From assembly GCF_007273535.1 (NCBI RefSeq), contig NZ_RIBP01000001.1, positions 372,001-436,000 of the forward strand: DNA of 64,000 bases, written 5' to 3'. Made by a program: the position numbers and the translations under genes. This DNA comes from Niallia circulans (GTDB taxonomy: Bacteria > Bacillota > Bacilli > Bacillales > Cytobacillaceae). Position 1 is the stretch's first letter; each line of letters starts with the position of its first letter. Below are positions 5,097 to 28,257 of this stretch, in pieces. The notes below the pieces were generated by a model that had not been told where the DNA came from, ran no database searches, and worked only from the letters and a program-made list of their open reading frames with translations.

Positions 5097-5684
5097 ATGA
5101 GTAAAAGTGGAAGACCTCGTGAATTTAATAAGCCTGAGGTGCTTGATGCAGCAATGAATGTGTTTTGGTTAAAAGGGTATGAAGCATGCTCCACAGAGGA
5201 TTTATGCAGCAGTACAGGGCTTGGTCGAGGAAGTTTATATAATACGTTTGGAAGTAAGCATGAATTGTATGAGCAAACACTCCAACGTTATCATGAGCAC
5301 TGGATTGAGGTGCAGACAGCGATTCTGGAACGTCCTGTCCCTGTTAAAGAAAGATTGCGTGGTCTGCTGGAATGGGCCGTTGAGAAGGATTTTGAGGATT
5401 CAAGTAAAGGCTGCTTTTTAATTAATGCTACGATGGAGCGTGGTCGCAGCGATTCGATTGTGGAGATTTGGTCGAATCGTCATGTAGAGTGTTTGGAAAG
5501 TGTTCTATTTAGTGTCATGGAGGATGGAATACAGGCTGGTGAGATAACATCAAATAGATCAGCACTAGAATTGGCAAGAACATATATATGTAGTTACTAT
5601 GGTCTTCGAACTCTCAATGTTACAACACGAAATCGTGATATGGCAGAACAAATCGTCGAGGGAACTATGGCAAGCATCTATTAA
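5097..5684 (+). CDS. TetR/AcrR family transcriptional regulator
   Basis: Transcriptional repressor of 195 aa. The N-terminal 60 residues form the TetR helix-turn-helix (FWLKGYEACSTEDLCSST then GLGRGSLYNTFGSKHELY). The rest is a helical ligand-binding domain containing KGCFLINATMER, typical of the YxaF/AcrR-like branch. AAGGAG is 6 nt from the ATG. The nitroreductase gene starts 93 bases downstream on the same strand with no terminator between, so the two probably form an operon controlled by this protein. Confidence 0.88.
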   Translation: MSKSGRPREFNKPEVLDAAMNVFWLKGYEACSTEDLCSSTGLGRGSLYNTFGSKHELYEQTLQRYHEHWIEVQTAILERPVPVKERLRGLLEWAVEKDFEDSSKGCFLINATMERGRSDSIVEIWSNRHVECLESVLFSVMEDGIQAGEITSNRSALELARTYICSYYGLRTLNVTTRNRDMAEQIVEGTMASIY

Positions 5685-9337: not shown

Positions 9338-9787
9338 ATGGAAGTAAAAAATATTGTAGATTTAAACACAATTAAAACGAATATGACTGCTAAAAGCAAG
9401 GAAGAAGCTATTCAGGAATTAGCTCAGGTCTTGCTTGAAAACGAATACATTAAGGATATTGAAGAATTTACAAAGGATATTTATGCTAGGGAAGCGATAG
9501 GACAAACTGGAATCGGAAATTATATTGCTATTCCTCATGGAAAAAGTGATTCTGTCGAAAAAATAGGCGTAGCGATTGGGATTACGCAAGAAGAAATCGC
9601 TTGGGAAACTCTCGATGGGAAGGGAGTTAAGGGAATCATTCTATTTGCGGTTAGTAACGATGATGGAGCACAAAGTCATTTGAAGCTATTATCATTATTT
9701 GCGAGAAAGCTAGGAAATGATGAAGTTATTGAGAAGATGCTGCAATCTAAAAATGCTGAGGATGTTAAAGAAGCTTTATGCAGCTAA
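9338..9787 (+). CDS. PTS fructose-family EIIA
   Basis: A 149-aa EIIA-Fru/Mtl type protein. The active histidine is in YIAIPHGKSDSV near residue 66; REAIGQTGIGN before it and LFAVSNDDGAQSHLKLLS after it are conserved. It accepts phosphate from HPr and donates it to the EIIB encoded just upstream. AAAGGAGAG precedes the ATG. Part of the same operon (20-base gap). Confidence 0.92.
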   Translation: MEVKNIVDLNTIKTNMTAKSKEEAIQELAQVLLENEYIKDIEEFTKDIYAREAIGQTGIGNYIAIPHGKSDSVEKIGVAIGITQEEIAWETLDGKGVKGIILFAVSNDDGAQSHLKLLSLFARKLGNDEVIEKMLQSKNAEDVKEALCS

Positions 9788-9842
9788 GAAAACATATAGT
9801 AGTAGATTTATTGAACGAGGTCTTTTATAGGAGGGGTAAATT

Positions 9843-10934
9843 GTGAGCGCATTAAAAAAATTAAATCTTAAAGGCCATTTATTAACAGCTATTTCATACT
9901 TGATTCCAATTGTGTGTGGAGCAGGTTTCTTGATCGCTATTGGGATGGCTTTTGGAGGAACAAGTCAAGGTTCTTTAGTACAAGGGGAGTTTTCCTTATG
10001 GGATGCTCTAGCAACAATGGGTGGAGCAGGTTTAGGCTTACTACCTGTCGTTATCGCAACAGGAATCTCTTATTCTATTGCTGGTAAACCCGGTATTGCT
10101 CCAGGTTTCATTATTGGATTAAGTGCTAATGCAATTGGCGCTGGCTTTATTGGTGGTATTTTAGGAGGATTCTTATCTGGTTATCTTGCTGTAGCTATTA
10201 TTAAACATTTTAAAGTTCCTAGCTGGGCTAAAGGCTTAATGCCAACATTAATTGTGCCATTTTTCACCTCCATTATTGGTGGACTAATCATGGTTTACAT
10301 TATTGGAATTCCTGTAGCGGCTCTTACGGCCTTATTAACAGATGGATTAAACAGTTTAGGTACCTCTTCGTTACTTGTATTTGGTGGAATTGTTGGTCTG
10401 TTAAGTGGAGTTGACTTTGGTGGACCGATCAACAAAACAGTATTTGCCTTCGTATTGACGATGCAAGCAGAAGGAATTAATGGACCTATCACAGCACTAC
10501 AATTAGTTAATACTGCAACTCCAATCGGTTTTGGATTAGCTTACTTTATTGCTAAAATCTTTAGAAAAAACATCTATACACGATCAGAAGTAGAAACGTT
10601 GAAATCAGCAGTGCCAATGGGTGTTGTTAACATTGTAGAAGGTGTTATTCCGATTGTTATGAATGATATTGTTCGTACTGTAACTGCTGTAGCGATTGGT
10701 GGAGCAGCTGGTGGTGCAGTAACGATGGTGTTAGGAGCAGATGCAACTGTACCATTTGGGGGAGTATTTATGCTACCAACAATGTCAAATCCATGGGCTG
10801 GGGTTGCAGCTATCTTAGTTAACGTTGTTGTAACAGGATTGGCATTAGCTTTAATTAAGAAAAATGTAAAAGAAGATGAGGAAATAGAAGTAGAAGAAGA
10901 AGATATCGATTTAGATGACATTCAAATTCTATAA
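9843..10934 (+). CDS. PTS fructose-family EIIC permease
   Basis: Membrane permease of 363 aa with eight to ten hydrophobic helices. It contains GKPGIAPGFIIG, the conserved DFGGPINKTVFAF loop of fructose-type IIC, and VPFGGVFMLPTMSNPW near the end, with an acidic C-terminal tail. The start is GTG at 9843, with AGGAGGGG upstream. It translocates and phosphorylates the sugar with the IIA and IIB encoded before it. The downstream AlsE-like epimerase suggests the substrate is D-allulose or a similar ketohexose rather than fructose; that is inference. Confidence 0.9.
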   Translation: MSALKKLNLKGHLLTAISYLIPIVCGAGFLIAIGMAFGGTSQGSLVQGEFSLWDALATMGGAGLGLLPVVIATGISYSIAGKPGIAPGFIIGLSANAIGAGFIGGILGGFLSGYLAVAIIKHFKVPSWAKGLMPTLIVPFFTSIIGGLIMVYIIGIPVAALTALLTDGLNSLGTSSLLVFGGIVGLLSGVDFGGPINKTVFAFVLTMQAEGINGPITALQLVNTATPIGFGLAYFIAKIFRKNIYTRSEVETLKSAVPMGVVNIVEGVIPIVMNDIVRTVTAVAIGGAAGGAVTMVLGADATVPFGGVFMLPTMSNPWAGVAAILVNVVVTGLALALIKKNVKEDEEIEVEEEDIDLDDIQIL

Positions 10935-11027: not shown

Positions 11028-11717
11028 ATGAAAAAAGTAGAATTTTCACCGTCATTAATGACAATGGATTTAGATAAGTTTAAAGAGCAAATCACTTTTT
11101 TAAACGATCATGTAGGTTCTTATCATATTGATATCATGGATGGGCATTATGTCCCTAATATCACATTATCCCCATGGTTTATGCAGGAAGTGCGAAAAAT
11201 AAGTGACTTACCGATGTCTGCCCATCTTATGGTAACTAATCCAAGCTTCTGGGTCCAACAATTAGTGGATCTAAAGTGTGAATGGATTTGTATGCATGCA
11301 GAAGTACTGGATGGCCTTGCTTTCCGCTTAATTGATCAAATCCATGATGCTGGACTTAAAGCAGGGATAGTATTAAATCCTGAAACTCCTATTGAAACAA
11401 TTTTCCCTTATATTGATTTAGTGGATAAAATCACGATTATGACAGTTGATCCAGGCTTCGCAGGACAACGCTTTATTGAAAGCACCCTTGATAAAATTGT
11501 CGCATTAAGAGAATTACGTGACGAAAAAGGCTATCAATATGTTATTGAAATGGATGGCTCATCAAGTAGAAAAACCTTTAAAAGAATCGATGCAGCAGAT
11601 CCTGATATTTATATCATCGGTCGTAGCGGTCTATTTGGTTTAGATGAAGATATTCAAAAATCATGGGAAATAATGTGTAAAGATTATGAGGATATGACAG
11701 GGAAAGTAGTAGAATAA
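11028..11717 (+). CDS. alsE: D-allulose-6-phosphate 3-epimerase (AlsE-like)
   Basis: A 229-aa TIM-barrel epimerase of the ribulose-phosphate 3-epimerase superfamily. FSPSLMTMDLDKFKEQI, YHIDIMDGHYVPNITLSP, SAHLMVTNP, TIMTVDPGFAGQRFI and EMDGSSSRKT place it with AlsE rather than Rpe. The His and Asp metal/catalytic residues (HIDIMD, MTVDPG, EMDG) are present. AlsE interconverts D-allulose 6-phosphate and D-fructose 6-phosphate, which would feed the PTS product into glycolysis. It is the last gene of the operon, with GGAGG before the ATG. A substrate other than allulose is possible. Confidence 0.8.
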   Translation: MKKVEFSPSLMTMDLDKFKEQITFLNDHVGSYHIDIMDGHYVPNITLSPWFMQEVRKISDLPMSAHLMVTNPSFWVQQLVDLKCEWICMHAEVLDGLAFRLIDQIHDAGLKAGIVLNPETPIETIFPYIDLVDKITIMTVDPGFAGQRFIESTLDKIVALRELRDEKGYQYVIEMDGSSSRKTFKRIDAADPDIYIIGRSGLFGLDEDIQKSWEIMCKDYEDMTGKVVE

Positions 11718-11723
11718 AGGTTT

Positions 11724-11759
11724 AAAGAGGCTGGGTCAAGCTACCCACCTCTTTTTTTT
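11724..11759 (+). terminator. Terminator of the PTS operon
   Basis: AGAGG-C-TGGGT pairs with ACCCA-CCTCT (one bulged C), followed by eight Ts. The left arm resembles the AGAGGCTGGGACA end of the 6546-6790 element. Confidence 0.85.
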
Positions 11760-11916
11760 GTTGATGCATAAAAGTAACTTTTCAATTATATAATAGTTTG
11801 TTTTGAAGACTAGTTTTAAAAGTGATTAGCTTGCTTAAATTATGTTTTGTATTCACTTTAATAGTTACTAGCGATAAGATAATTCTTCTATAACCTAGAA
11901 TAGGAGAAATACGCTT

Positions 11917-11946
11917 ATGTCATTAAAAGAACAACTCAATTTTTAA
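11917..11946 (+). pseudogene. Gene-start remnant
   Basis: AGGAGAAA stands before an ATG that opens a frame of only nine codons (MSLKEQLNF) and then stops. Similar openings occur in redoxin-like proteins. A terminator follows 87 bases later. It looks like the scar of a deleted gene, though a leader peptide cannot be excluded. Confidence 0.35.
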
Positions 11947-12032
11947 GATGCAAAAAAAAATCGGAAAAAGGTTTCAAGAGAATGTAAAAAGGGTAATAAG
12001 AAATAATGCACTTATATATTGAGTAAGGCATA

Positions 12033-12060
12033 TGGATAAATCCTTATCCAGATTTTTTTA
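12033..12060 (+). terminator. Terminator upstream of carotenoid promoter
   Basis: TGGATAA and TTATCCA form a 7-bp stem around ATCC, followed by GATTTTTTT. It would insulate the carotenoid promoter from upstream transcription. Confidence 0.75.
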
Positions 12061-12117
12061 TGTTTTAAAAGGTTAACTTACTGATTTTACCCGAATTGTT
12101 AGTTTAATAGCTGTATG

Positions 12118-12146
12118 TTGACAACAAACCATTATCACTTGATAAT
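12118..12146 (+). promoter_or_regulatory. Promoter of the carotenoid operon
   Basis: A consensus -35 TTGACA (12118-12123), a 17-base spacer and GATAAT (12141-12146) form a strong SigA promoter. The first palindrome (12131-12146) occupies the spacer and the -10, so a bound protein would block RNA polymerase. The predicted start is near 12153, giving a leader of about 190 nt. Confidence 0.75.
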
Positions 12147-12283
12147 AAAGTTGTTTGAATTTCACCTTATCACTTGATAAGGTGAGATATTTTACAGTTG
12201 CTTATCAATCGATAAGTGAAATGTTCGTCTTCCTTATCACTTGATAAGGGGAGTTGTAGTTATTTGGTTTATCAACTGATAAG
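12131..12283 (+). promoter_or_regulatory. Array of five phased palindromic operators
   Basis: Five 16-bp palindromes with the pattern YTTATCA-NN-YGATAAG lie at 12131-12146, 12166-12181, 12201-12216, 12233-12248 and 12268-12283. Centre-to-centre spacings are 35, 35, 32 and 35 bp. Site 2 has 11-bp perfect arms (12162-12185) and site 4 has 8-bp perfect arms. Site 1 overlaps the -10; the others are in the transcribed leader. The simplest reading is a cooperative repressor array; the regulator is not encoded next to it. Confidence 0.75.
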
Positions 12284-12344
12284 GGAAGGTTAGATTAGGA
12301 TTTAAAAATATTACCAGAAGTAAAATAGGGGGCAATTTACCACA

Positions 12345-13910
12345 ATGACTAAAAAAGTAGCTATTATTGGTGCAGGTGTTGCAGGATTGGCAAGTGCTAT
12401 CCGTTTGCAGCATGCTGGATACGAGGTTGAAATATATGAGAAAGAAGCTATTGCAGGAGGGAAAATGCATCGCATTGAAAAGGATGGCTTTCAATTTGAC
12501 CTTGGACCATCCATTGTAATGATGCCAGAGTTATATCGGGAAATCTTTGAACTGGCCGGACGCAATCCAGATGATTATATCCCGATGGAAAGATTGGATC
12601 CGATGTATTCCGTTTTCTTTGGAAGTGGAAAGCAAGGCTATCACGAGGTCTCCTCTGATTTGGTGGAATTAATGAAAACATTTGAACATGCTAGTGAAAA
12701 GGATGCAGAAGGGTTCTTAAAATACTTGCAGTTGATTTATGAACGTTTTATGGTGGCGAAAAATCATTTTCTGCAGCGTCCCTTCCGAAATAAAAGGGAT
12801 TTCTACAATCCTGCAACATTGTATCAAGCATTGAAGTTAAAGACCTTTGACAGTGCTGACAATTTTATAAGTAAATATGTTAAAAATGAGCAGTTGAAGC
12901 AAATGATTAGTTTTCAAACGTTATATATCGGTGTGTCTCCATATAACGGTCCGTCTTTGTACTCGATGATTCCGATGATTGAGTTTTTCTATGGCATCTG
13001 GTTTATAAAAGGCGGTATGTATACGATGGCCAAGTCAATGGAGCGATTATTTCTTGAGCTTGGCGGCAAGGTTTTCTATCAATCCTCTGTAGAAGAAATT
13101 ATGATAGAAAATCAAGTAGCAACAGGAATTAAGGTGAATGGTAAAGTGGTTTCTGCCGACAAGGTTATTTGTAATGCTGATTTTCCTTATGCCATGAAAA
13201 ATCTTGTAAAAGAAGACAAAGCAAAAGGAAAATATACAGATAAAAAGATTGATAGTATGGATTATTCCTGCTCATGCTTCATCATGTATTTAGGCATGAA
13301 TAAAAAATATGAAGAATTAAAAACCGCTCATAGCTTTTTCTTTGGAGAGGAACTAAAAAAGAACCTTGACGATATATTTGCAGGGGAAAAACTAGTGAAT
13401 CCATCCTTTTATGTATACACTGCTTCCAAGCTAGATCCAACATTGGCTCCAGAAGGGAAGGATGGACTATATATACTTGTCCCTGTCTCTGATCTATCTA
13501 CAGCTAAGTACGAATGGACAGATGAAACAATTTCCTATTATCGGTCTCAAGTCCTTCAAACGCTCAGTCAAGTCGAGGGGCTAGCAGAAATCGAAGAGGA
13601 TATTATCTCTGAAACGTATATGACGCCAGTGGATTTCGCTGAGAAGTTCAACGCATATAATGGCGCTTGCTTTGGATTACGTCCTACGTTAACACAAAGT
13701 AACCATTTAAGACCGCAAAGCAAAGCGAAAAATTGTGAAAACCTCTATTTCACAGGAAGCAGCACACACCCAGGGGCAGGTGTCCCAATTGTATTGCTAT
13801 CAGCGAAAATTGCAAGTGATGAATTAATATTAGATGATTCTGTTTCTATGAAAGCAACGACAGAAAAGACAGTCCATTCTGCAGGAGGGGTTGCAAATGA
13901 GGGAAGCTAA
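12345..13910 (+). CDS. crtN: Diapophytoene/phytoene desaturase (CrtN type)
   Basis: FAD-dependent carotenoid desaturase of 521 aa. The N-terminal dinucleotide fold is AIIGAGVAGLASAIRLQHAG, followed by GGKMHRIEKDGFQFDLGPS. The C-terminal NLYFTGSSTHPGAGVPIVL closes the FAD site as in CrtI/CrtN enzymes. It should introduce double bonds into the product of CrtM (4,4'-diapophytoene if C30). It is the first gene of a seven-gene operon and overlaps crtM by 14 bases. A GGGGG ribosome binding site lies about 12 nt before the ATG, rather far. The C30 assignment rests on similarity to staphylococcal-type clusters, not on a diagnostic residue. Confidence 0.88.
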   Translation: MTKKVAIIGAGVAGLASAIRLQHAGYEVEIYEKEAIAGGKMHRIEKDGFQFDLGPSIVMMPELYREIFELAGRNPDDYIPMERLDPMYSVFFGSGKQGYHEVSSDLVELMKTFEHASEKDAEGFLKYLQLIYERFMVAKNHFLQRPFRNKRDFYNPATLYQALKLKTFDSADNFISKYVKNEQLKQMISFQTLYIGVSPYNGPSLYSMIPMIEFFYGIWFIKGGMYTMAKSMERLFLELGGKVFYQSSVEEIMIENQVATGIKVNGKVVSADKVICNADFPYAMKNLVKEDKAKGKYTDKKIDSMDYSCSCFIMYLGMNKKYEELKTAHSFFFGEELKKNLDDIFAGEKLVNPSFYVYTASKLDPTLAPEGKDGLYILVPVSDLSTAKYEWTDETISYYRSQVLQTLSQVEGLAEIEEDIISETYMTPVDFAEKFNAYNGACFGLRPTLTQSNHLRPQSKAKNCENLYFTGSSTHPGAGVPIVLLSAKIASDELILDDSVSMKATTEKTVHSAGGVANEGS

Positions 13911-14775
13911 AATCATTGATTCGCTTCAAAATGACTATCAATACTGTGAAAATGTGATTAAAAACAATTCAGCAAGCTTCTACCACGCTTTTAAAAAGCT
14001 GCCAAAAGACAAAGCGAATGCTGTATATGCCATTTATGCATTTTGCCGCTATGCAGATGACAGTGTTGATGAAACTGGAAATAAATCTGTACAAGAAAAA
14101 AATTGGCAGAACTTGTACCATCAGCTAAAGCTTTTTGAAAAGGGCGAGGAAATTTCATCCCCGCTTTGGAGAGCGTTGCGAGATGTTTTTACCCGTTATG
14201 AGATGGATATTAAACCTTTCTACGAGCAATTAGAAGGACAAAAGATGGACATAAACTTTCAACAGCCTAATACATTAGCAGAGTTAGAGCAGTATTGTTA
14301 TTATGTAGCCGGAACGGTTGGCTTGATGCTTCTTCCTATTTTAGCAACGGAAAATCATCAGCACTTGCATATGTATGCAGTTCAATTAGGGGTCGCTATG
14401 CAATTGACTAATATTCTCAGAGATGTTGGTGAGGATTATCGAAATAATCGAATCTATTTACCAGTTGATTTGCTTGAAAAGGAAGATTACAAACAACGGG
14501 ACTTAGAAGCTAGCAATATAAACGCATCCTTTATAAAAGTTTGGGAGGAAATTGCAACCCGATCAGAACAGCTTTATGCATTATTTCAGGTTGGAATGGA
14601 TTATTTTGATAAAGACAGTCAATTACATGTTCTTTTATCAGCACTTATTTATAAAGAAATATTAAAAGTTGTCCGAGAAAATGGATATGACTGCTTGCAT
14701 ACACGAAACTATGTATCTGAAGAGAATATGGTTCGATTAAAGCAAGCAGTAGAAGAATTAACAGTGGGTTTATAA
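13897..14775 (+). CDS. crtM: Dehydrosqualene/phytoene synthase (CrtM type)
   Basis: Trans-isoprenyl diphosphate synthase of 292 aa that condenses two prenyl diphosphates head to head. The first aspartate-rich motif is FCRYADDSVDE (about residue 50) and the second is LTNILRDVGEDYRNNRIYLP; both bind Mg-diphosphate. The ATG at 13897 is served by GGAGGGG; the preceding in-frame TTG is too close to that site. No geranylgeranyl diphosphate synthase is in the cluster, in keeping with a C30 route from farnesyl diphosphate. The start overlaps crtN, so translation is coupled. Confidence 0.88.
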   Translation: MREAKIIDSLQNDYQYCENVIKNNSASFYHAFKKLPKDKANAVYAIYAFCRYADDSVDETGNKSVQEKNWQNLYHQLKLFEKGEEISSPLWRALRDVFTRYEMDIKPFYEQLEGQKMDINFQQPNTLAELEQYCYYVAGTVGLMLLPILATENHQHLHMYAVQLGVAMQLTNILRDVGEDYRNNRIYLPVDLLEKEDYKQRDLEASNINASFIKVWEEIATRSEQLYALFQVGMDYFDKDSQLHVLLSALIYKEILKVVRENGYDCLHTRNYVSEENMVRLKQAVEELTVGL

Positions 14776-14809
14776 CTCATATTTAGAGGACTTGGGAGCT
14801 GTAACAGTT

Positions 14810-15871
14810 ATGGACACAATTAGACAAAATCGTAAAGCAGAGCACATTAACCTTGCATTAACATCACCATTTTCACTTAGTTCCGATTTTGATGAGCTGT
14901 CATTCATTCACCGTTCCTTGCCGGAAATGAAGATGGAAGACATTCAGCTCCAGACCAACATCGGGCCTTTAACGCTCGATTACCCAATTTTTATCAATGC
15001 AATGACAGGTGGCAGTGAGAAATCAGCAGTAATTAATGCATCTCTTGCGGAAGCTGCCAGGGAAACTGGAATTGCAATGGCAGTCGGTTCTCAGCATGCT
15101 GCCATTCGAAATGAAGACCTTGCACATACATTTAAAGTTGTAAGAGAAAAAAACCCGCACGGTCTTGTATTTGCAAATATTGGGGCAGATGCGCCACTCG
15201 ATTATGCATTAACAGCTATTGATATGCTGGAGGCTGATGCCCTGCAAGTTCATTTGAATGTGCCACAAGAGCTGGTTATGCCAGAAGGAGAACGCAATTT
15301 CACTAATATTCTTGCTAGGTTAGAAAAATTATCGGTAAAGCTGCAGGTGCCTGTTATCGTCAAGGAAACCGGGTTCGGCATGAGTTCAGAAACGCTCAGG
15401 CAGCTACATAGTGCTGGTATTCAATATGTTGATTTAGGAGGAAAAGGCGGCACCAATTTCATTCATATAGAAAATGAGCGCAGAAGTAAACGCGATTTTG
15501 CGTATTTAAAAGATTGGGGTCAATCGACTGTCATTTCGTTGTTAGAAGCACAGTCCGTATTAGGTGAGCTGACAATCATCGCCTCAGGCGGAATACGTAA
15601 CCCGCTTGATGCAGTAAAATCATTCTCCTTAGGAGCGTCTGCTGCAGGAATTGCCGGACCATTTTTGAAAATTCTCCATGACGAAGGCATTAATGGATTA
15701 ATAACGGAGCTGGAGGTGTGGAAGGAACATTTAAAAATGCTGCTTCTCCTCCAAGGGGCTCAATCTATTCCAAATCTTCAGCACTGTCCGATGATAGCTG
15801 GCGGGAAGGTAAGAGAATGGTGCGAAGCGAGAGGACTTGACTGGCAAAGTCTTGCGCAAAGGAAGCCGTAA
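14810..15871 (+). CDS. fni: Type 2 isopentenyl-diphosphate delta-isomerase
   Basis: FMN- and NADPH-dependent isomerase of 353 aa interconverting IPP and DMAPP. Conserved segments are RKAEHINLAL at the N-terminus, PIFINAMTGGSEKS, AVGSQHAAI, VKETGFGMS, VDLGGKGGTNF and IASGGIRNPLDAVKS (FMN phosphate site). The ATG at 14810 has GGGAG about 11 nt upstream; an earlier in-frame TTG at 14792 lacks room for a ribosome binding site. Placing it inside the carotenoid operon couples precursor balance to pigment synthesis. Confidence 0.92.
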   Translation: MDTIRQNRKAEHINLALTSPFSLSSDFDELSFIHRSLPEMKMEDIQLQTNIGPLTLDYPIFINAMTGGSEKSAVINASLAEAARETGIAMAVGSQHAAIRNEDLAHTFKVVREKNPHGLVFANIGADAPLDYALTAIDMLEADALQVHLNVPQELVMPEGERNFTNILARLEKLSVKLQVPVIVKETGFGMSSETLRQLHSAGIQYVDLGGKGGTNFIHIENERRSKRDFAYLKDWGQSTVISLLEAQSVLGELTIIASGGIRNPLDAVKSFSLGASAAGIAGPFLKILHDEGINGLITELEVWKEHLKMLLLLQGAQSIPNLQHCPMIAGGKVREWCEARGLDWQSLAQRKP

Positions 15872-15887
15872 TGAGAAGGAGAGCATT

Positions 15888-16622
15888 ATGAGTTTTGAAA
15901 ATGGCCTATTTCGTTTTTTTATCATTTGGTATATTTGCGGTGTGATTCTTCTTACCTTTGATCTGCTGCCTGCTTGGCTTGAATGGGCGAACGCTGTGTT
16001 TTTGATTTTAAGCGGCCTTTTGGCAATTGTTTATTTCACTAAAGTATTTGGGAAAAAAGCAGCATATGTAATCAGCCTAGTTATTTTCTTATTCTCCTAT
16101 CTTGCAGAATACATCGGATCGACTCATGGAATTTTATTTGGAGATTATTATTATACGAATCGGTTTGCTCCTAATTTATTTGAAGTACCAATAGCCATTG
16201 GATTTGCCTGGCTAATGGTAATGGGGACATCACATGCTTTAGCAAATGCAATTTCAGCAAAAAAATGGATGCAGCCGATTATTGGTGCCTGTATTGCCGT
16301 GGTTATTGACTTAATTATCGATCCGGTTGCATTTAAACTTAAGCAATATTGGATTTGGCAAGAGGACGGCGTCTACTATAACATTCCATTCAGCAATTTT
16401 TTAGGGTGGTTTATTGTTGCACTTATCCTTCATGTATTTATTTTATCTTTCTCACAAGAAAAAAATTCTCTTTGGGAGAAGCGGATGTTTTACCTATTTG
16501 CCCTAACGATTACGATGTTTGTATTGCTTGCGGCAACAGGTGAGCTTTGGCTAGCATGTATCTTGACAGCTTGCTTGGCCGGAATGACACTATATACGGC
16601 TATAGGAAGGAAACCATCATGA
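15888..16622 (+). CDS. CruF-like carotenoid biosynthesis membrane protein (DUF422)
   Basis: Polytopic membrane protein of 244 aa with six to seven helices. It carries GDYYYTNRFAPNLFEVPIAI-like and DLIIDPVAFKLKQYWIWQ-like segments typical of the DUF422/CruF carotenoid family. CruF proteins hydrate the end double bond of acyclic carotenoids, making a 1-hydroxy group. That role here is inference from family and context; it would supply the hydroxyl glycosylated by a later enzyme. The ATG at 15888 follows AAGGAGAG. Its stop overlaps the next gene as ATGA. Confidence 0.8.
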   Translation: MSFENGLFRFFIIWYICGVILLTFDLLPAWLEWANAVFLILSGLLAIVYFTKVFGKKAAYVISLVIFLFSYLAEYIGSTHGILFGDYYYTNRFAPNLFEVPIAIGFAWLMVMGTSHALANAISAKKWMQPIIGACIAVVIDLIIDPVAFKLKQYWIWQEDGVYYNIPFSNFLGWFIVALILHVFILSFSQEKNSLWEKRMFYLFALTITMFVLLAATGELWLACILTACLAGMTLYTAIGRKPS

Positions 16623-17281
16623 TTTATGCTAAAAAAGACGTTGTTTTCAACAAATTTTTCTCTATTTTCAACAAGAGACTGCTTGCCTACTCTTTTGACA
16701 AAATCTATTGGCAAGCATCCAGCAAACTGCCTTCAGGTCCTTACATTTTTGTCTGCAACCACTCGTCTTGGTGGGATGGACTTATCTACTTTCAGTTGAC
16801 GAAGACGGTTATACAGCAGGATTTGTATATCATGATGCATGAACAGGGCTTAAAGCAGTTTCCATACTTTAAGAAGCTTGGAGCCTTCTCCATCGACCGC
16901 TCCAGCCCAAAAGAAACGATAAAAACAATGAGGTATGCTGAGATGTTGCTGAATAAGGGGAAAAGTGTATGGGTTTTTCCTCAAGGGGATGAGTATCACT
17001 TGGAAAAACGCCCGCTGCAATTTCAGCCAGGAGCCTTGTACCTGCAGGAAAAGGTTCCCGAAATTCCCGTCATACCAGTATGCTTCTACTATTCGTTTGC
17101 ACACAAACGAAAGCCGGAGGTATGGATAAAGGCAGGCAATCCATTGTTTAGCACAGATCTGCCAGGAGTTTTGCGGCAGGAAAAAACCTTATCACTTGAA
17201 AAGAAATGTACAGACGCATTGGATGAGTTGAAAGGCGAAGTAATCAGCGAAAAAACGAAGCACTTCGTAAACTTGCTGTAA
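16619..17281 (+). CDS. PlsC-like acyltransferase of carotenoid pathway
   Basis: A 220-aa acyltransferase of the lysophosphatidic acid acyltransferase fold. The catalytic H-x4-D motif is FVCNHSSWWDGLIYF (about residue 45); FSIDRSSPKETIKTM and VFPQGDEYH are the later substrate motifs. In this operon it most likely attaches a fatty acid to the carotenoid glycoside, taking the place of CrtO in Staphylococcus. The start is the ATG at 16619 in an ATGA overlap with the previous gene, served by AGGAAGG. Confidence 0.82.
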   Translation: MIYAKKDVVFNKFFSIFNKRLLAYSFDKIYWQASSKLPSGPYIFVCNHSSWWDGLIYFQLTKTVIQQDLYIMMHEQGLKQFPYFKKLGAFSIDRSSPKETIKTMRYAEMLLNKGKSVWVFPQGDEYHLEKRPLQFQPGALYLQEKVPEIPVIPVCFYYSFAHKRKPEVWIKAGNPLFSTDLPGVLRQEKTLSLEKKCTDALDELKGEVISEKTKHFVNLL

Positions 17282-17295
17282 GGGGCGATGTCTAA

Positions 17296-18402
17296 ATGAT
17301 ACTATTTTTAATCATCAGTCTCTTCCTATTTTTCCTTTGGACATTGTGGAATATGAGCGGATTGCCAAGTCTTCCAGCTTCTAATTTAAATAAAAACCTT
17401 CAGCCCCTTGTGTCCGTTTTGGTGCCTTTACGAAACGAAGCACAGAACGTGGCTGGACTAATTAACAGCTTAAAATCCTTATCATACCCAAATGTGGAAT
17501 TCCTTCTCCTTGATGATGGGTCATCAGATCAGACGTTGTGTTTGCTGCAGGAAAACACGTCAGGAGATAGCCGCTTTAAGATATTAAGAGGAAGAGAGCT
17601 TCCAGCAGGCTGGGCTGGCAAGGTGCATGCCTGTCATCAGCTGCAGGAAAAAGCGAAGGGTGAGTATTTCCTTTTTATTGATGCAGACGTTCGTCTGAAA
17701 TCTGGAGTGATAGGAAAGGCACTTACATTGTTAAAAAAAGAAAATGTTAAGCTGATAACTGGCTTTCCTTCCTTTGAGGTTCCGGGTATTATGAGCAAGC
17801 TTTTAATTCCGATGATGCATTTCGTTGTACTATTCCATCTCCCGCTCCATCTTGCAAATAGAAGCAAGATGAGTGCGGCAACGGCTGCTAATGGGGTTTT
17901 TATGTTTTTTGAAAGAAATGCCTATCAGGAAATAGGCGGTCATCGTACCGTCCGGACTTCGATAGTGGAGGATGTTCATCTGGCAAGACAAATGAAGCTA
18001 TCTGGATATAAAGTCTGCTTGGCTAATATAAGTACGGACGTTTCATGCCGGATGTATGAACGAAATAGCGAAGTATGGGAAGGATTTATAAAGAATATTT
18101 TTACAGGGCTTGGACGTTCTGTCCCGCTGGTTTTGCTCTTGAGCGTTTTCTATGGCTTTTTTTATGTACTCCCTGGAATTCTAATGGTGTATGGATTATG
18201 GATGTTCCAACCGCTATTCGTCCTTCCCTATATTCTGGTTGTCCTGCAGCGCATGGCAGTTGACTGGAAAGCAAGTCAGCGTTTGTCTCTATCCTTCTTC
18301 ATGCCGATATCGGCAGCCATACTAATTATTATCATGAACGCTTCTATGTGGAGATGGATCAGGAAAAAGCCGTATAGCTGGAAAGGAAGACAGTATTCAT
18401 GA
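17296..18402 (+). CDS. crtQ: Family 2 glycosyltransferase, CrtQ-like
   Basis: Membrane-anchored glycosyltransferase of 368 aa. An N-terminal helix (residues 2-18) precedes a GT-A domain with VSVLVPLRNEAQNVAGLI, FLLLDDGSSDQT, FIDADVRLKSG and VEDVHLARQMKLSGY, the last resembling the acceptor motif. Three C-terminal hydrophobic segments follow. It matches 4,4'-diaponeurosporenoate glycosyltransferases in size and layout. Here it probably transfers glucose to a hydroxylated or carboxylated carotenoid. It overlaps the next gene by ATGA. Confidence 0.85.
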   Translation: MILFLIISLFLFFLWTLWNMSGLPSLPASNLNKNLQPLVSVLVPLRNEAQNVAGLINSLKSLSYPNVEFLLLDDGSSDQTLCLLQENTSGDSRFKILRGRELPAGWAGKVHACHQLQEKAKGEYFLFIDADVRLKSGVIGKALTLLKKENVKLITGFPSFEVPGIMSKLLIPMMHFVVLFHLPLHLANRSKMSAATAANGVFMFFERNAYQEIGGHRTVRTSIVEDVHLARQMKLSGYKVCLANISTDVSCRMYERNSEVWEGFIKNIFTGLGRSVPLVLLLSVFYGFFYVLPGILMVYGLWMFQPLFVLPYILVVLQRMAVDWKASQRLSLSFFMPISAAILIIIMNASMWRWIRKKPYSWKGRQYS

Positions 18403-19871
18403 AGAAAAAGGTGTTAATCATTGGCGGCGGACTGGCAGGATTGTCAGCAGCGATAACGCTTGCCAACAAAGGATTTCAAGTAGAACTATTTGAAAAGAAC
18501 AAGCATTTTGGAGGTAAATTAATGCCTGTCGCATTAGGGGATTATACGTTTGATTTCGGACCGAATACGATCACCATGCCAGAGGTATTCCGGAAAGTGA
18601 TTGAACAGACTGGTGAAAAGGCTGAAGACTATTTCCATATGGTCAAACTGGAACATCATACAAGAAATGTGTTTTCAGATGGAACCTCCTTTGACCTTTC
18701 GAGCAACAGGGAATATATGCTGCAACAGTTAATGCAGCTGGACGCTGGCCATAAATATGATGATTTCTTAAAAGAGATTACCAGATTATATAAATTATCA
18801 GCGAAACATTTCCTGCCAAAGACATTCCATTCATGGCAGGACTACTTATCGCCATCACTTGGGGCAGCACTTATGCAGGTGAGACCGCTGCAAAGCCTGG
18901 ACAGCTTTTTTCGGCAGTATTTTTCCCATCCTCATGTGCTGCAGGCTTTTAATCGCTATTCGACTTACATTGGCTCGTCTCCCTATAAGACTCCTGCCAC
19001 ATTTGCCATGATTGCCTATTTAGAAATGATTGGCGGTGTTTATTATGTTGAAGGCGGCAATGTTAAAATTGCAGAGGCTTATGCAAAAGTCGCACAAAAG
19101 CTTGGTGCCAGGCTTTACGCTGATGCAACAGTTAAAAGAATAATCGTAAAAAACAAAAAAGCCATAGGCATCGAGCTTGAAGATGGGGAGAAAATACAGG
19201 GGGATTACTTTATTATGAATGCAGATTTGCTTAAAGCCTATCCCGAGCTGGTGAACGAAAGCGACCGTCCCTCCTTTCCAGATTCAAAGGCAGCAGGAAA
19301 GACACCCTCCACTTCGGCTTTTGTCGTGCTTGCAGGTGTTAATAAACGATTTTCAGAGCTGAGGCATCATAACGTCTATTTTTCCAATAATTACAAGCAG
19401 GAATTTATTGATTTATTCCAACATAAGCAATACAGCAGTGAACCAACCATTTACATCAGCAACTCTTCCTATACAGAGCCTGGCCGTTCACCTGGGGGCA
19501 GCAATCTTTTTATACTAGCAAATGCTCCAGCTCTTCCTGCTGATGGGAAACTGCAGGTAAATCCAGAAATGTATAAAGAGCTTATTTATCAAAAGCTTGC
19601 AACCTTTGGACTATCGTTGAAGGAAAATATCGTTGAGGAAAAAGTCTATACACCTGCTGATATTGCTTCTCAATTCGGCGCATTCCGAGGAGCTCTCTAT
19701 GGTCTATCCTCCAATCGGAAAAAAGATGCCTTTTTGCGTCCTAAAAATTCGAGCAAGGATATTGCTAATCTCTTTTTCGCAGGTGGAAGCACACATCCTG
19801 GCGGCGGGTCGCCAATTGTAACATGGAGCGGCATGAATACGGCCAATTTAATTATAAAGGCAGATAAATAG
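18399..19871 (+). CDS. crtP: Diapolycopene oxygenase / CrtP (CrtNb)-like desaturase
   Basis: Second FAD-dependent CrtI-family enzyme of the operon, 490 aa. IIGGGLAGLSAAITLANKG binds FAD, GGKLMPVALGDYTFDFGPNT follows, and NLFFAGGSTHPGGGSPIVT closes the C-terminus. It differs strongly from the first enzyme and resembles CrtP/CrtNb, which oxidise the terminal methyl of diapocarotenoids to aldehyde or acid. Two CrtN-like paralogues at the ends of one operon is the usual arrangement. No CrtNc aldehyde dehydrogenase is seen nearby. A second desaturase role is the alternative. Confidence 0.82.
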   Translation: MKKKVLIIGGGLAGLSAAITLANKGFQVELFEKNKHFGGKLMPVALGDYTFDFGPNTITMPEVFRKVIEQTGEKAEDYFHMVKLEHHTRNVFSDGTSFDLSSNREYMLQQLMQLDAGHKYDDFLKEITRLYKLSAKHFLPKTFHSWQDYLSPSLGAALMQVRPLQSLDSFFRQYFSHPHVLQAFNRYSTYIGSSPYKTPATFAMIAYLEMIGGVYYVEGGNVKIAEAYAKVAQKLGARLYADATVKRIIVKNKKAIGIELEDGEKIQGDYFIMNADLLKAYPELVNESDRPSFPDSKAAGKTPSTSAFVVLAGVNKRFSELRHHNVYFSNNYKQEFIDLFQHKQYSSEPTIYISNSSYTEPGRSPGGSNLFILANAPALPADGKLQVNPEMYKELIYQKLATFGLSLKENIVEEKVYTPADIASQFGAFRGALYGLSSNRKKDAFLRPKNSSKDIANLFFAGGSTHPGGGSPIVTWSGMNTANLIIKADK

Positions 19872-24894: not shown

Positions 24895-24926
24895 AATAAA
24901 ACCATCAAAAATGATGGTTTTATTTA
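24895..24926. terminator. Hairpin, probable gerC terminator
   Basis: AATAAAACCATC and GATGGTTTTATT form a perfect 12-bp stem around a 6-nt loop, 200 bases after the gerC-like stop. T-rich on both strands. Confidence 0.6.
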
Positions 24927-25235
24927 ACCCTATATATAAGAGATTCAAGTTTTACTAAGAATATGGAACTTGTTTGAGGATTAATAATTTCTAATAAGCC
25001 ATTTTCATGATTAAAGAAGCAAAAGTGTATTTTACTGTTGTATATAACTTTTTGACCGAAGAAAACGTCATTATTCTGATATTGATACATAGCTGTTGAC
25101 TTGTTTTTAATGGATCTTCAGTCCTCCTTTCCTTTATAGAGGGAAGGTGACTAAGAAAAGTCTAAAAGGACCCAATATTTATGTCTATTATGGTTACCTT
25201 AACATCGTGAGGGGCTGTAAGTAAAATATTTTTTA

Positions 25236-25251
25236 CTTATCAACCGATAAG
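25236..25251 (+). promoter_or_regulatory. Isolated copy of the carotenoid-operon palindrome
   Basis: CTTATCAACCGATAAG differs from array site 3 (CTTATCAATCGATAAG) at one base. It stands alone 194 bases upstream of the gene at 25445. Confidence 0.5.
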
Positions 25252-27336: not shown

Positions 27337-28164
27337 TCATTTTTCATATTCATGAGTATTCACTTTAATACCTATTTTGGTTATATATTCTTCTTCATGT
27401 TTTGAGACTAAAGAATGGAGTAGGTACTCTTCATAGGCATCCCCGTCTAGTGTTAATTTCCGTGATACTATCTCTTTTAACAAATAAGAATAAGCGTTTT
27501 TTATATTATCATACGATCCTTGATAATAATAGATAGCATACAAACCAGCGGGTTTTTTTATAGTTCCTGGCCCTTCCATCCGGCAAAATAAACAATCAGC
27601 TTGAAGATAGTTTTCATTTATGAGGTTTTTCTTATTTAGGACGGAACCAAATGCTGCTGCTCCATTTACACCTACTTCTTTCAAGAATTCATCATAGATA
27701 TGTGATAAAGCTTCCACAGATGCCTCCCAATCAATATTCTTCGATGAGCTGTATAAGACAGATTCTTCAGGTAGTTCTTTTAGTACTAACTCCCCTATAA
27801 CCACGTTCTGCAATTCATCTGTTACTTCCATTAATCGTGACAGAAATAATTGATTTTCTTTTAGTTTATTTATCTCTATTTCAATATTTTCCACTTGTCT
27901 TGAAGCAAGTTCATTTAATCTAGCAGAGGAAGGTGAGTCAAAATAAGATTTTAGTTCTTTTATTGGAACGTTAACGGAACGAAGTGATTGAATCGCGCTA
28001 AAGGTGTCTAATTGCGGTAAAGTATAGTACCGATAGCCGTTTGAGTGTATACCTGCAGGATTAAATAAGTTAATTTTATTGTAGTACAGTAAAGTGTCTT
28101 TTTTAACTCCAAATAAATCTGCAAATTCTCCTGTGGAAAATGTCGTTATATAATTATTTATCAC
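27337..28164 (-). CDS. MerR family transcriptional regulator with effector domain
   Basis: Regulator of 275 aa. The N-terminal MerR helix-turn-helix is FSTGEFADLFGVKKDTLLYY with NGYRYYTLPQLDTF; a coiled coil follows (SRQVENIEIEINKLKENQ). A C-terminal GyrI/BmrR-like ligand domain of about 150 residues contains AGLYAIYYYQGSYDNIKNAY. I chose the GTG at 28164 because AAGGAAGGAG lies 8 nt upstream; longer frames lack such a site. It is divergent from an MFS exporter whose promoter has MerR geometry, so it likely activates that exporter on binding a hydrophobic drug. Confidence 0.85.
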   Translation of the reverse strand: MINNYITTFSTGEFADLFGVKKDTLLYYNKINLFNPAGIHSNGYRYYTLPQLDTFSAIQSLRSVNVPIKELKSYFDSPSSARLNELASRQVENIEIEINKLKENQLFLSRLMEVTDELQNVVIGELVLKELPEESVLYSSSKNIDWEASVEALSHIYDEFLKEVGVNGAAAFGSVLNKKNLINENYLQADCLFCRMEGPGTIKKPAGLYAIYYYQGSYDNIKNAYSYLLKEIVSRKLTLDGDAYEEYLLHSLVSKHEEEYITKIGIKVNTHEYEK

Positions 28165-28180
28165 ATTATTCACTCCTTCC

Positions 28181-28211
28181 TTTACTATGGAGTTACTCCA
28201 CACTTTATAAT
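28181..28211 (+). promoter_or_regulatory. MerR-type promoter of the MFS gene
   Basis: TTTACT (28181-28186) and a perfect TATAAT (28206-28211) are separated by 19 bases. The spacer holds the palindrome TGGAGTTACTCCA at 28188-28200. An overlong spacer with a central palindrome is the hallmark of promoters untwisted by MerR activators. Confidence 0.75.
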
Positions 28212-28257
28212 AACATTCAGTCAAGTGAATTTCATTTTTAAACAAAAAGGATTGGTG

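Follow-up and report, generated by a model that had tools for sequence, protein, structure and literature searches.

The carotenoid operon and its promoter

The window, as we call the whole stretch of 64,000 nucleotides of Niallia circulans DNA that was analysed (G000:C3:372001-436000), holds a carotenoid (crt) operon that starts with crtN, a gene whose closest named counterpart is that of Niallia taxi (97%). Gene order and tight spacing suggest that the genes downstream of crtN belong to the same operon. The open reading frames of the operon encode enzymes, which agrees with the original prediction that no regulator is present within it. A TetR gene (5097-5684) and a MerR gene (27337-28245) elsewhere in the window were rejected as candidate regulators, as neither has a nearby site matching 12 of the 14 informative bases of the motif described below.

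Five palindromes had been predicted in front of crtN, with centers 35, 35, 32 and 35 bp apart, the first overlapping both spacer and -10 in a promoter of the form TTGACA-17-GATAAT and the remaining ones lying in the leader. The window sequence bears out this layout, both for the promoter (12118-12146) and for the leader sites (12166-12283), and places sites 2-5 between the expected transcription start and the crtN start codon (12345). The consensus put forward for the palindromes, YTTATCA-NN-YGATAAG, holds exactly for four of the five sites, while site 1 carries two mismatches. At least 12 of 14 informative bases were matched at five positions of the 627 bp intergenic region, whereas 5000 dinucleotide shuffles gave at most one such position (45 shuffles with one). 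With a loose pattern allowing up to three mismatches, the whole window contained 48 matches versus a shuffle mean of 37.6, and 12 of 100 shuffles reached 48, so that enrichment at this level is not clear. We also noted a 13/14 match at 17188-17203 inside the acyltransferase gene of the operon, with a 12/14 counterpart at 13845 in the crt region of L033. Because the match in the window lies inside coding sequence, it was left out of the site count.

Table 1. Coordinates of the promoter elements, predicted operators and genes. Positions refer to the window unless a contig is named.
Feature	Position	Strand	Remarks
-35 hexamer TTGACA of the crt promoter	12118-12123	+	From sequence; identical in G000, G172, G176, G177 and L033
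Spacer of the crt promoter, 17 bp	12124-12140		From sequence
-10 hexamer GATAAT of the crt promoter	12141-12146	+	From sequence; also the right end of site 1
Predicted operator site 1, ATTATCACTTGATAAT	12131-12146		Overlaps spacer and -10
Predicted operator site 2, CTTATCACTTGATAAG	12166-12181		Leader; identical in G176 and G177, one base different in G172
Predicted operator site 3, CTTATCAATCGATAAG	12201-12216		Leader
Predicted operator site 4, CTTATCACTTGATAAG	12233-12248		Leader
Predicted operator site 5, TTTATCAACTGATAAG	12268-12283		Leader
crtN, first operon gene, CrtI/CrtN-family carotenoid desaturase	12345-13910	+	TIGR02734, 435.2 bits (cut-off 238.1)
Remaining crt operon (predicted): phytoene/squalene synthase family, type 2 IPP isomerase, CruF-like protein, acyltransferase, glycosyltransferase, second CrtI-family desaturase	13891-19871	+	
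Further site, CTTATCAACCGATAAG	25236-25251		Upstream of small-protein paralog at 24923-25075 (-)
tetR, candidate regulator gene	G000:C4:1618365-1619003	-	Directly ahead of MMPL-family exporter gene; contig other than the crt contig

A tetR-MMPL locus carries the same sites

The protein acting on the palindromes had been described as unknown. This is not supported, because we found a strong candidate in the same genome, a TetR gene situated beside an MMPL exporter gene. The prediction came with a proposed check, to look for a TetR gene whose own promoter contains the palindrome, and this check turned out positive at this locus. Both genes lie on the same strand (tetR at 9366-10004 and the MMPL gene at 6979-9213 of L028; PF03176, 344.7 bits), and three exact sites accompany them, two between the genes at a distance of 34 bp and one upstream of tetR. 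The N-terminus of the candidate contains the helix-turn-helix domain PF00440 (TetR_N; E 8.7e-18, 64.3 bits, cut-off 24). Its structure model shows an all-helical TetR fold (pLDDT 86.9) with 406 matches in the PDB at E<=0.001, the best 50 of which are TetR-type or unnamed regulators by title.

Apart from those of the crt array, the genome carries three exact sites at tetR-MMPL and four located upstream of paralogs of a small protein of 50-60 amino acids. The latter four, together with a site carrying one mismatch (window 25236-25251; G000:C1:814, C2:95632, C4:3332890 and C3:213784), lie about 145-152 bp upstream of these paralogs. A site accompanies five of seven paralogs in G000 and one of six in G172, and no Pfam match was found in the one copy of the small protein scanned. 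Since the flanks diverge more than the palindrome, the small-protein genes may form a third class of targets. The ends of contigs C2 and C1 (L030 and L031) carry near-identical segments in opposite orientation, each with the small protein, an ArsR-like gene and a gene for a 328 amino acid protein.

Conservation of the sites within the genus

Exact CTTATCANNYGATAAG was present at the tetR-MMPL locus in all 13 genomes of the genus and at crtN in all five genus genomes with full-length crtN. In the 12 genus genomes besides G000, every exact match lay at one of these two places. A control with the motif read in reverse gave no match in the genus genomes, apart from a single one in G171. L033 and G176 as well as L034 and G171 have identical coordinates, and each pair was counted once.

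The proposal of a regulatory array would have lost its basis had motif and spacing not been kept upstream of orthologous crtN genes. The array is present in four of the five crtN-bearing genus genomes (G000, G172, G176 and G177); the fifth, G171, carries a single site 73 bp before crtN. The gaps measure 35, 35, 32 and 35 bp in G000, 35, 35, 32 and 36 bp in G177, 35, 37, 32 and 36 bp in G176 (the N. taxi record) and 35, 35, 35 and 36 bp in G172. Bases within the sites were better conserved than those between them in G177 (74/80 vs 54/73, p 0.002) and G176 (74/80 vs 51/73, p 0.0003), and the difference was not significant in G172 (67/80 vs 54/73, p 0.17). The -10 is retained in G172 despite decay of the left arm of site 1, which scores 11/14. 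This comparison supports the notion that the sites are conserved at genus crtN operons in the manner of an operator array.

The spacing of the sites is loosely held

The regular spacing had been taken to suggest phased sites at which a multi-dimer filament or a looped complex assembles. The sites are indeed fairly regular: 27 gaps from crt and MMPL promoters, which are not independent of each other, have a mean of 34.3 bp (sd 1.8, range 31-37). However, gap lengths of 31, 32, 34, 35, 36 and 37 bp occur and span about half a helical turn, and clustering of the helical phase did not exceed that of random gaps in the range 31-37 bp (0.12 with all 27 gaps, 0.20 with 14 hand-picked as distinct). 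Orthologous crt gaps differ by 1-3 bp, and elsewhere sites are 48 bp (G589) or 76 bp (G163, G165) apart or occur singly. Because of the half-turn spread and the shifts between orthologs, a helically phased filament or loop nucleated by the sites is not supported and appears improbable to us. The spacing is loosely held, which speaks against helical phasing and not against cooperativity as such.

The sites accompany TetR orthologs across the family

We analyzed 193 genomes of the family and found a TetR ortholog (E<=1e-30) in 38 of them. Thirty of the ortholog loci were scanned; five of the six loci of genus g11 as well as those of G163 (where the ortholog match contains internal stops) and G165 were fetched separately, which covers all ortholog genomes except G033. 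At each of the 30 scanned loci, whose orthologs share 40-100% identity, a site of at least 12/14 was located within 190 bp downstream of tetR, an MMPL homolog was encoded, and at least two sites were present in total; 24 of the loci also had a site upstream. Sites located shortly before the start codon of the gene after tetR were likewise found in other genera.

Of the 38 family genomes encoding the ortholog, 31 contain exact CTTATCANNTGATAAG, versus eight of the 155 without it (Fisher 8e-22), a value that ignores shared descent and is therefore only a guide. The seven ortholog genomes lacking the exact form comprise G167, where the Y form was found, five genomes of genus g11, in which 12-13/14 variants lie close upstream of tetR, and G033, which lies outside the genomes examined. 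As for the eight genomes having the motif and no ortholog, seven loci were inspected (all but that of G191), and in G030, G047 and G140 a MarR-like gene was found by an oxidoreductase-like gene.

TetR homologs at crt clusters of other families

TetR homologs at E<=1e-15 were found in two of 18 named crtN genomes and in six of 35 crtN genomes of a class sample, two sets that share at least one genome. In five of these eight TetR-bearing genomes the homolog, a distant one (29-41% identity), is encoded at the crt cluster and accompanied by sites. The order in Alkalihalobacillus trypoxylicola is tetR, a 14/14 and a 12/14 site, and crtN, and G479 has a 13/14 site between divergent tetR and crtN genes. 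In G589, tetR is followed by two exact sites 48 bp apart, a gene for a 237 amino acid protein, a CrtO gene and ABC-transporter-like genes, with crtN 11 kb further on. In both G302 and G515, ABC-transporter-like genes, crtN, crtM and tetR belong to a single run on one strand; an exact site lies just before the first gene of this run, and no other site within 10 kb reaches 12/14. Together with the sites near start codons in other genera, this suggests that operators in the leader are a common feature.

In G595, a sixth of these genomes, the crtN promoter TTTACA-17-TATACT has its spacer filled by a 13/14 site, and the TetR genes are located on other contigs, one of them being followed by three 12/14 sites. 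No site was found at crtN in the last two of the eight, G211 and G553; the TetR of G553 is of the MMPL type and has 14/14 and 13/14 sites. Orthology is not claimed for the A. trypoxylicola TetR, because the tree pairs it with the TetR of O. manasiensis on a long branch and over a weak backbone.

Most crtN genomes outside the genus have no TetR link. All 17 other named crtN loci lacked a 12/14 site within 700 bp upstream, and five distant crtN loci (31-33% identity, not among the 17) gave one 12/14 match, 1.5 kb upstream. The class sample covered 30 loci for 36 genomes, and the crtM and ABC genes were assigned from translations. Between the named set and the class sample, G197 and G354 share one place. 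When the class crtN loci were rescanned, 25 of 29 could be anchored at the FAD-binding motif (the exceptions being L243 and L245-L247). The rescan yielded a site in L244 (13/14) and a 12/14 match far upstream in L233, which was not counted. L243 belongs to G479, whose site was found via L256.

Two side observations were made at these clusters. Between tetR and crtN of A. trypoxylicola, the palindrome (L040:8841-8856) makes up the central part of a terminator-like hairpin. In addition, ABC-transporter-like permease and ATPase genes recur beside TetR and crt genes in other families (L251, L255/L262, L263 and L264), and the transporter might possibly represent a second exporter type under the same control.

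Discussion

Comparison of the sequences establishes that the sites exist, that they are conserved and that they are tightly linked with this TetR subfamily at exporter and crt genes. In our view the five palindromes are very likely operators of an autoregulated TetR repressor. The gene for this protein precedes an MMPL exporter gene at another place in the genome, and the repressor would control the exporter and the pigment genes. Pigment and pump appear to share one switch, because the same predicted repressor sites are found at both. We infer binding, repression, a roadblock action and an effector, and propose the following mechanism. With site 1 occupied by a TetR dimer, the spacer and the -10 would be covered and RNA polymerase would be excluded from the crt promoter. 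Sites 2-5 lie beyond the expected start, and dimers bound there would be roadblocks to elongation. Exporter and pigment would be switched on together once the dimers had been released by an effector, which is probably a lipid-type molecule. A lipid or fatty acid signal is our leading guess for this effector.

The TetR protein might instead act positively and be needed for induction. Inactivation of farR in Staphylococcus aureus is reported to abolish inducible farE expression (PMC12671165), so that FarR departs from simple repression and an inducing role is possible for the TetR protein described here as well. However, operators that overlap the -10 or follow it in the leader are consistent with repression and not with activation, which we regard as improbable; the small-protein sites lie farther upstream and could differ in this respect.

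It is very unlikely that another regulator acts at crt and that the shared palindrome is coincidental or belongs to a MarR protein. Eleven genomes of other genera (L058-L068) do carry pairs of TTATCA-NNN-GATAA cores with centers 40 bp apart, the genus itself has a core pair 38 bp apart in G169, and at L165, L168 and L178 a site is flanked or neighbored by one MarR-like and one oxidoreductase-like gene. Yet the 40 bp pairs mostly have GTTATCA...TGATAAC edges, though some carry C, whereas the crt sites agree with those of the TetR locus in tolerating A/G at position 7 and in the other bases, and TetR homologs are encoded at crt clusters in other families. We consider it least probable of all that the palindromes are RNA hairpins of the crt leader, as the position of sites 2-5 downstream of the expected start and the terminator-like A. 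trypoxylicola copy would allow, given that site 1 lies inside the promoter, that the motif accompanies tetR at every scanned ortholog locus, that its 2-base center better suits a protein dimer than an RNA loop, and that 11700-12400 contains no known RNA family at the Rfam gathering threshold.

Beyond the repressor of the Niallia crt operon, we lean towards a broader view. The TetR subfamily with the operator CTTATCR-NN-YGATAAG may represent a widespread and undescribed switch of membrane chemistry in Bacilli, acting on MMPL exporters in Bacillaceae-type genomes and repeatedly on crt clusters in other families, where it is found upstream of, divergent from or downstream of crtN. The Niallia carotenoid operon would have been wired into this switch through a natural array of five operators combining promoter and roadblock sites.

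The analysis names a candidate regulator and an operator for carotenoid synthesis in Bacilli, both of which are testable. The tie between the pigment and a lipid-type exporter points to a membrane-lipid signal. As the same TetR subfamily and operator recur at crt clusters of several families, pigment control can be tested directly, and the five-site array offers a natural system for studying how the number and spacing of operators set repression.

Among the open-access literature matches listed, and in passages of PMC11611032, PMC8816928 and PMC9706005, control of carotenoid genes by a TetR-type regulator was not found described for Bacillota. A search with the letters of the operator gave 401 matches, the best 20 of which are unrelated by title.

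Several known systems resemble the one described here in part. The MerR-family B12-dependent light regulators CarH and LitR control carotenoid genes as well (PMC6739363), but belong to another protein family. The TetR-family regulator FadR of Bacillus subtilis was the best fold match among the PDB entries listed, although a weak one (3whc, stearoyl-CoA complex; E 5e-7, TM 0.71/0.79, 19% identity). The candidate scores 36.1 bits versus the 200-bit cut-off of NF053878 and thus does not qualify as a FadR equivalog.

In gene arrangement, by which the two were compared, the locus resembles FarR-FarE of S. aureus, where a TetR-family gene likewise adjoins a gene for a fatty acid exporter of the RND superfamily. 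FarR and FarE are encoded divergently, whereas tetR and the MMPL gene share one strand here. PMC2629846 reports that unsaturated fatty acids raise the expression of the crt genes and of the MMPL gene SAR2632 in S. aureus and that a crtM mutant survives linoleic acid less well; control of crt by FarR was not found in the excerpts of the S. aureus FarR literature examined.

CrtR of Corynebacterium glutamicum and Mycobacterium kansasii represses carotenoid genes at loci that also hold mmpL, and disruption of crtR in M. kansasii is reported to raise crtE, mmpL1 and fni (PMC5401885, PMC9861118). CrtR is a MarR-family protein that is encoded at the crt locus and has a TTAA-containing site, whereas the regulator proposed here belongs to the TetR family, is encoded elsewhere and has five sites. 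With crt and mmpL placed together under another regulator family in mycobacteria and corynebacteria, the wiring of pigment and exporter genes to one switch seems to have arisen more than once.
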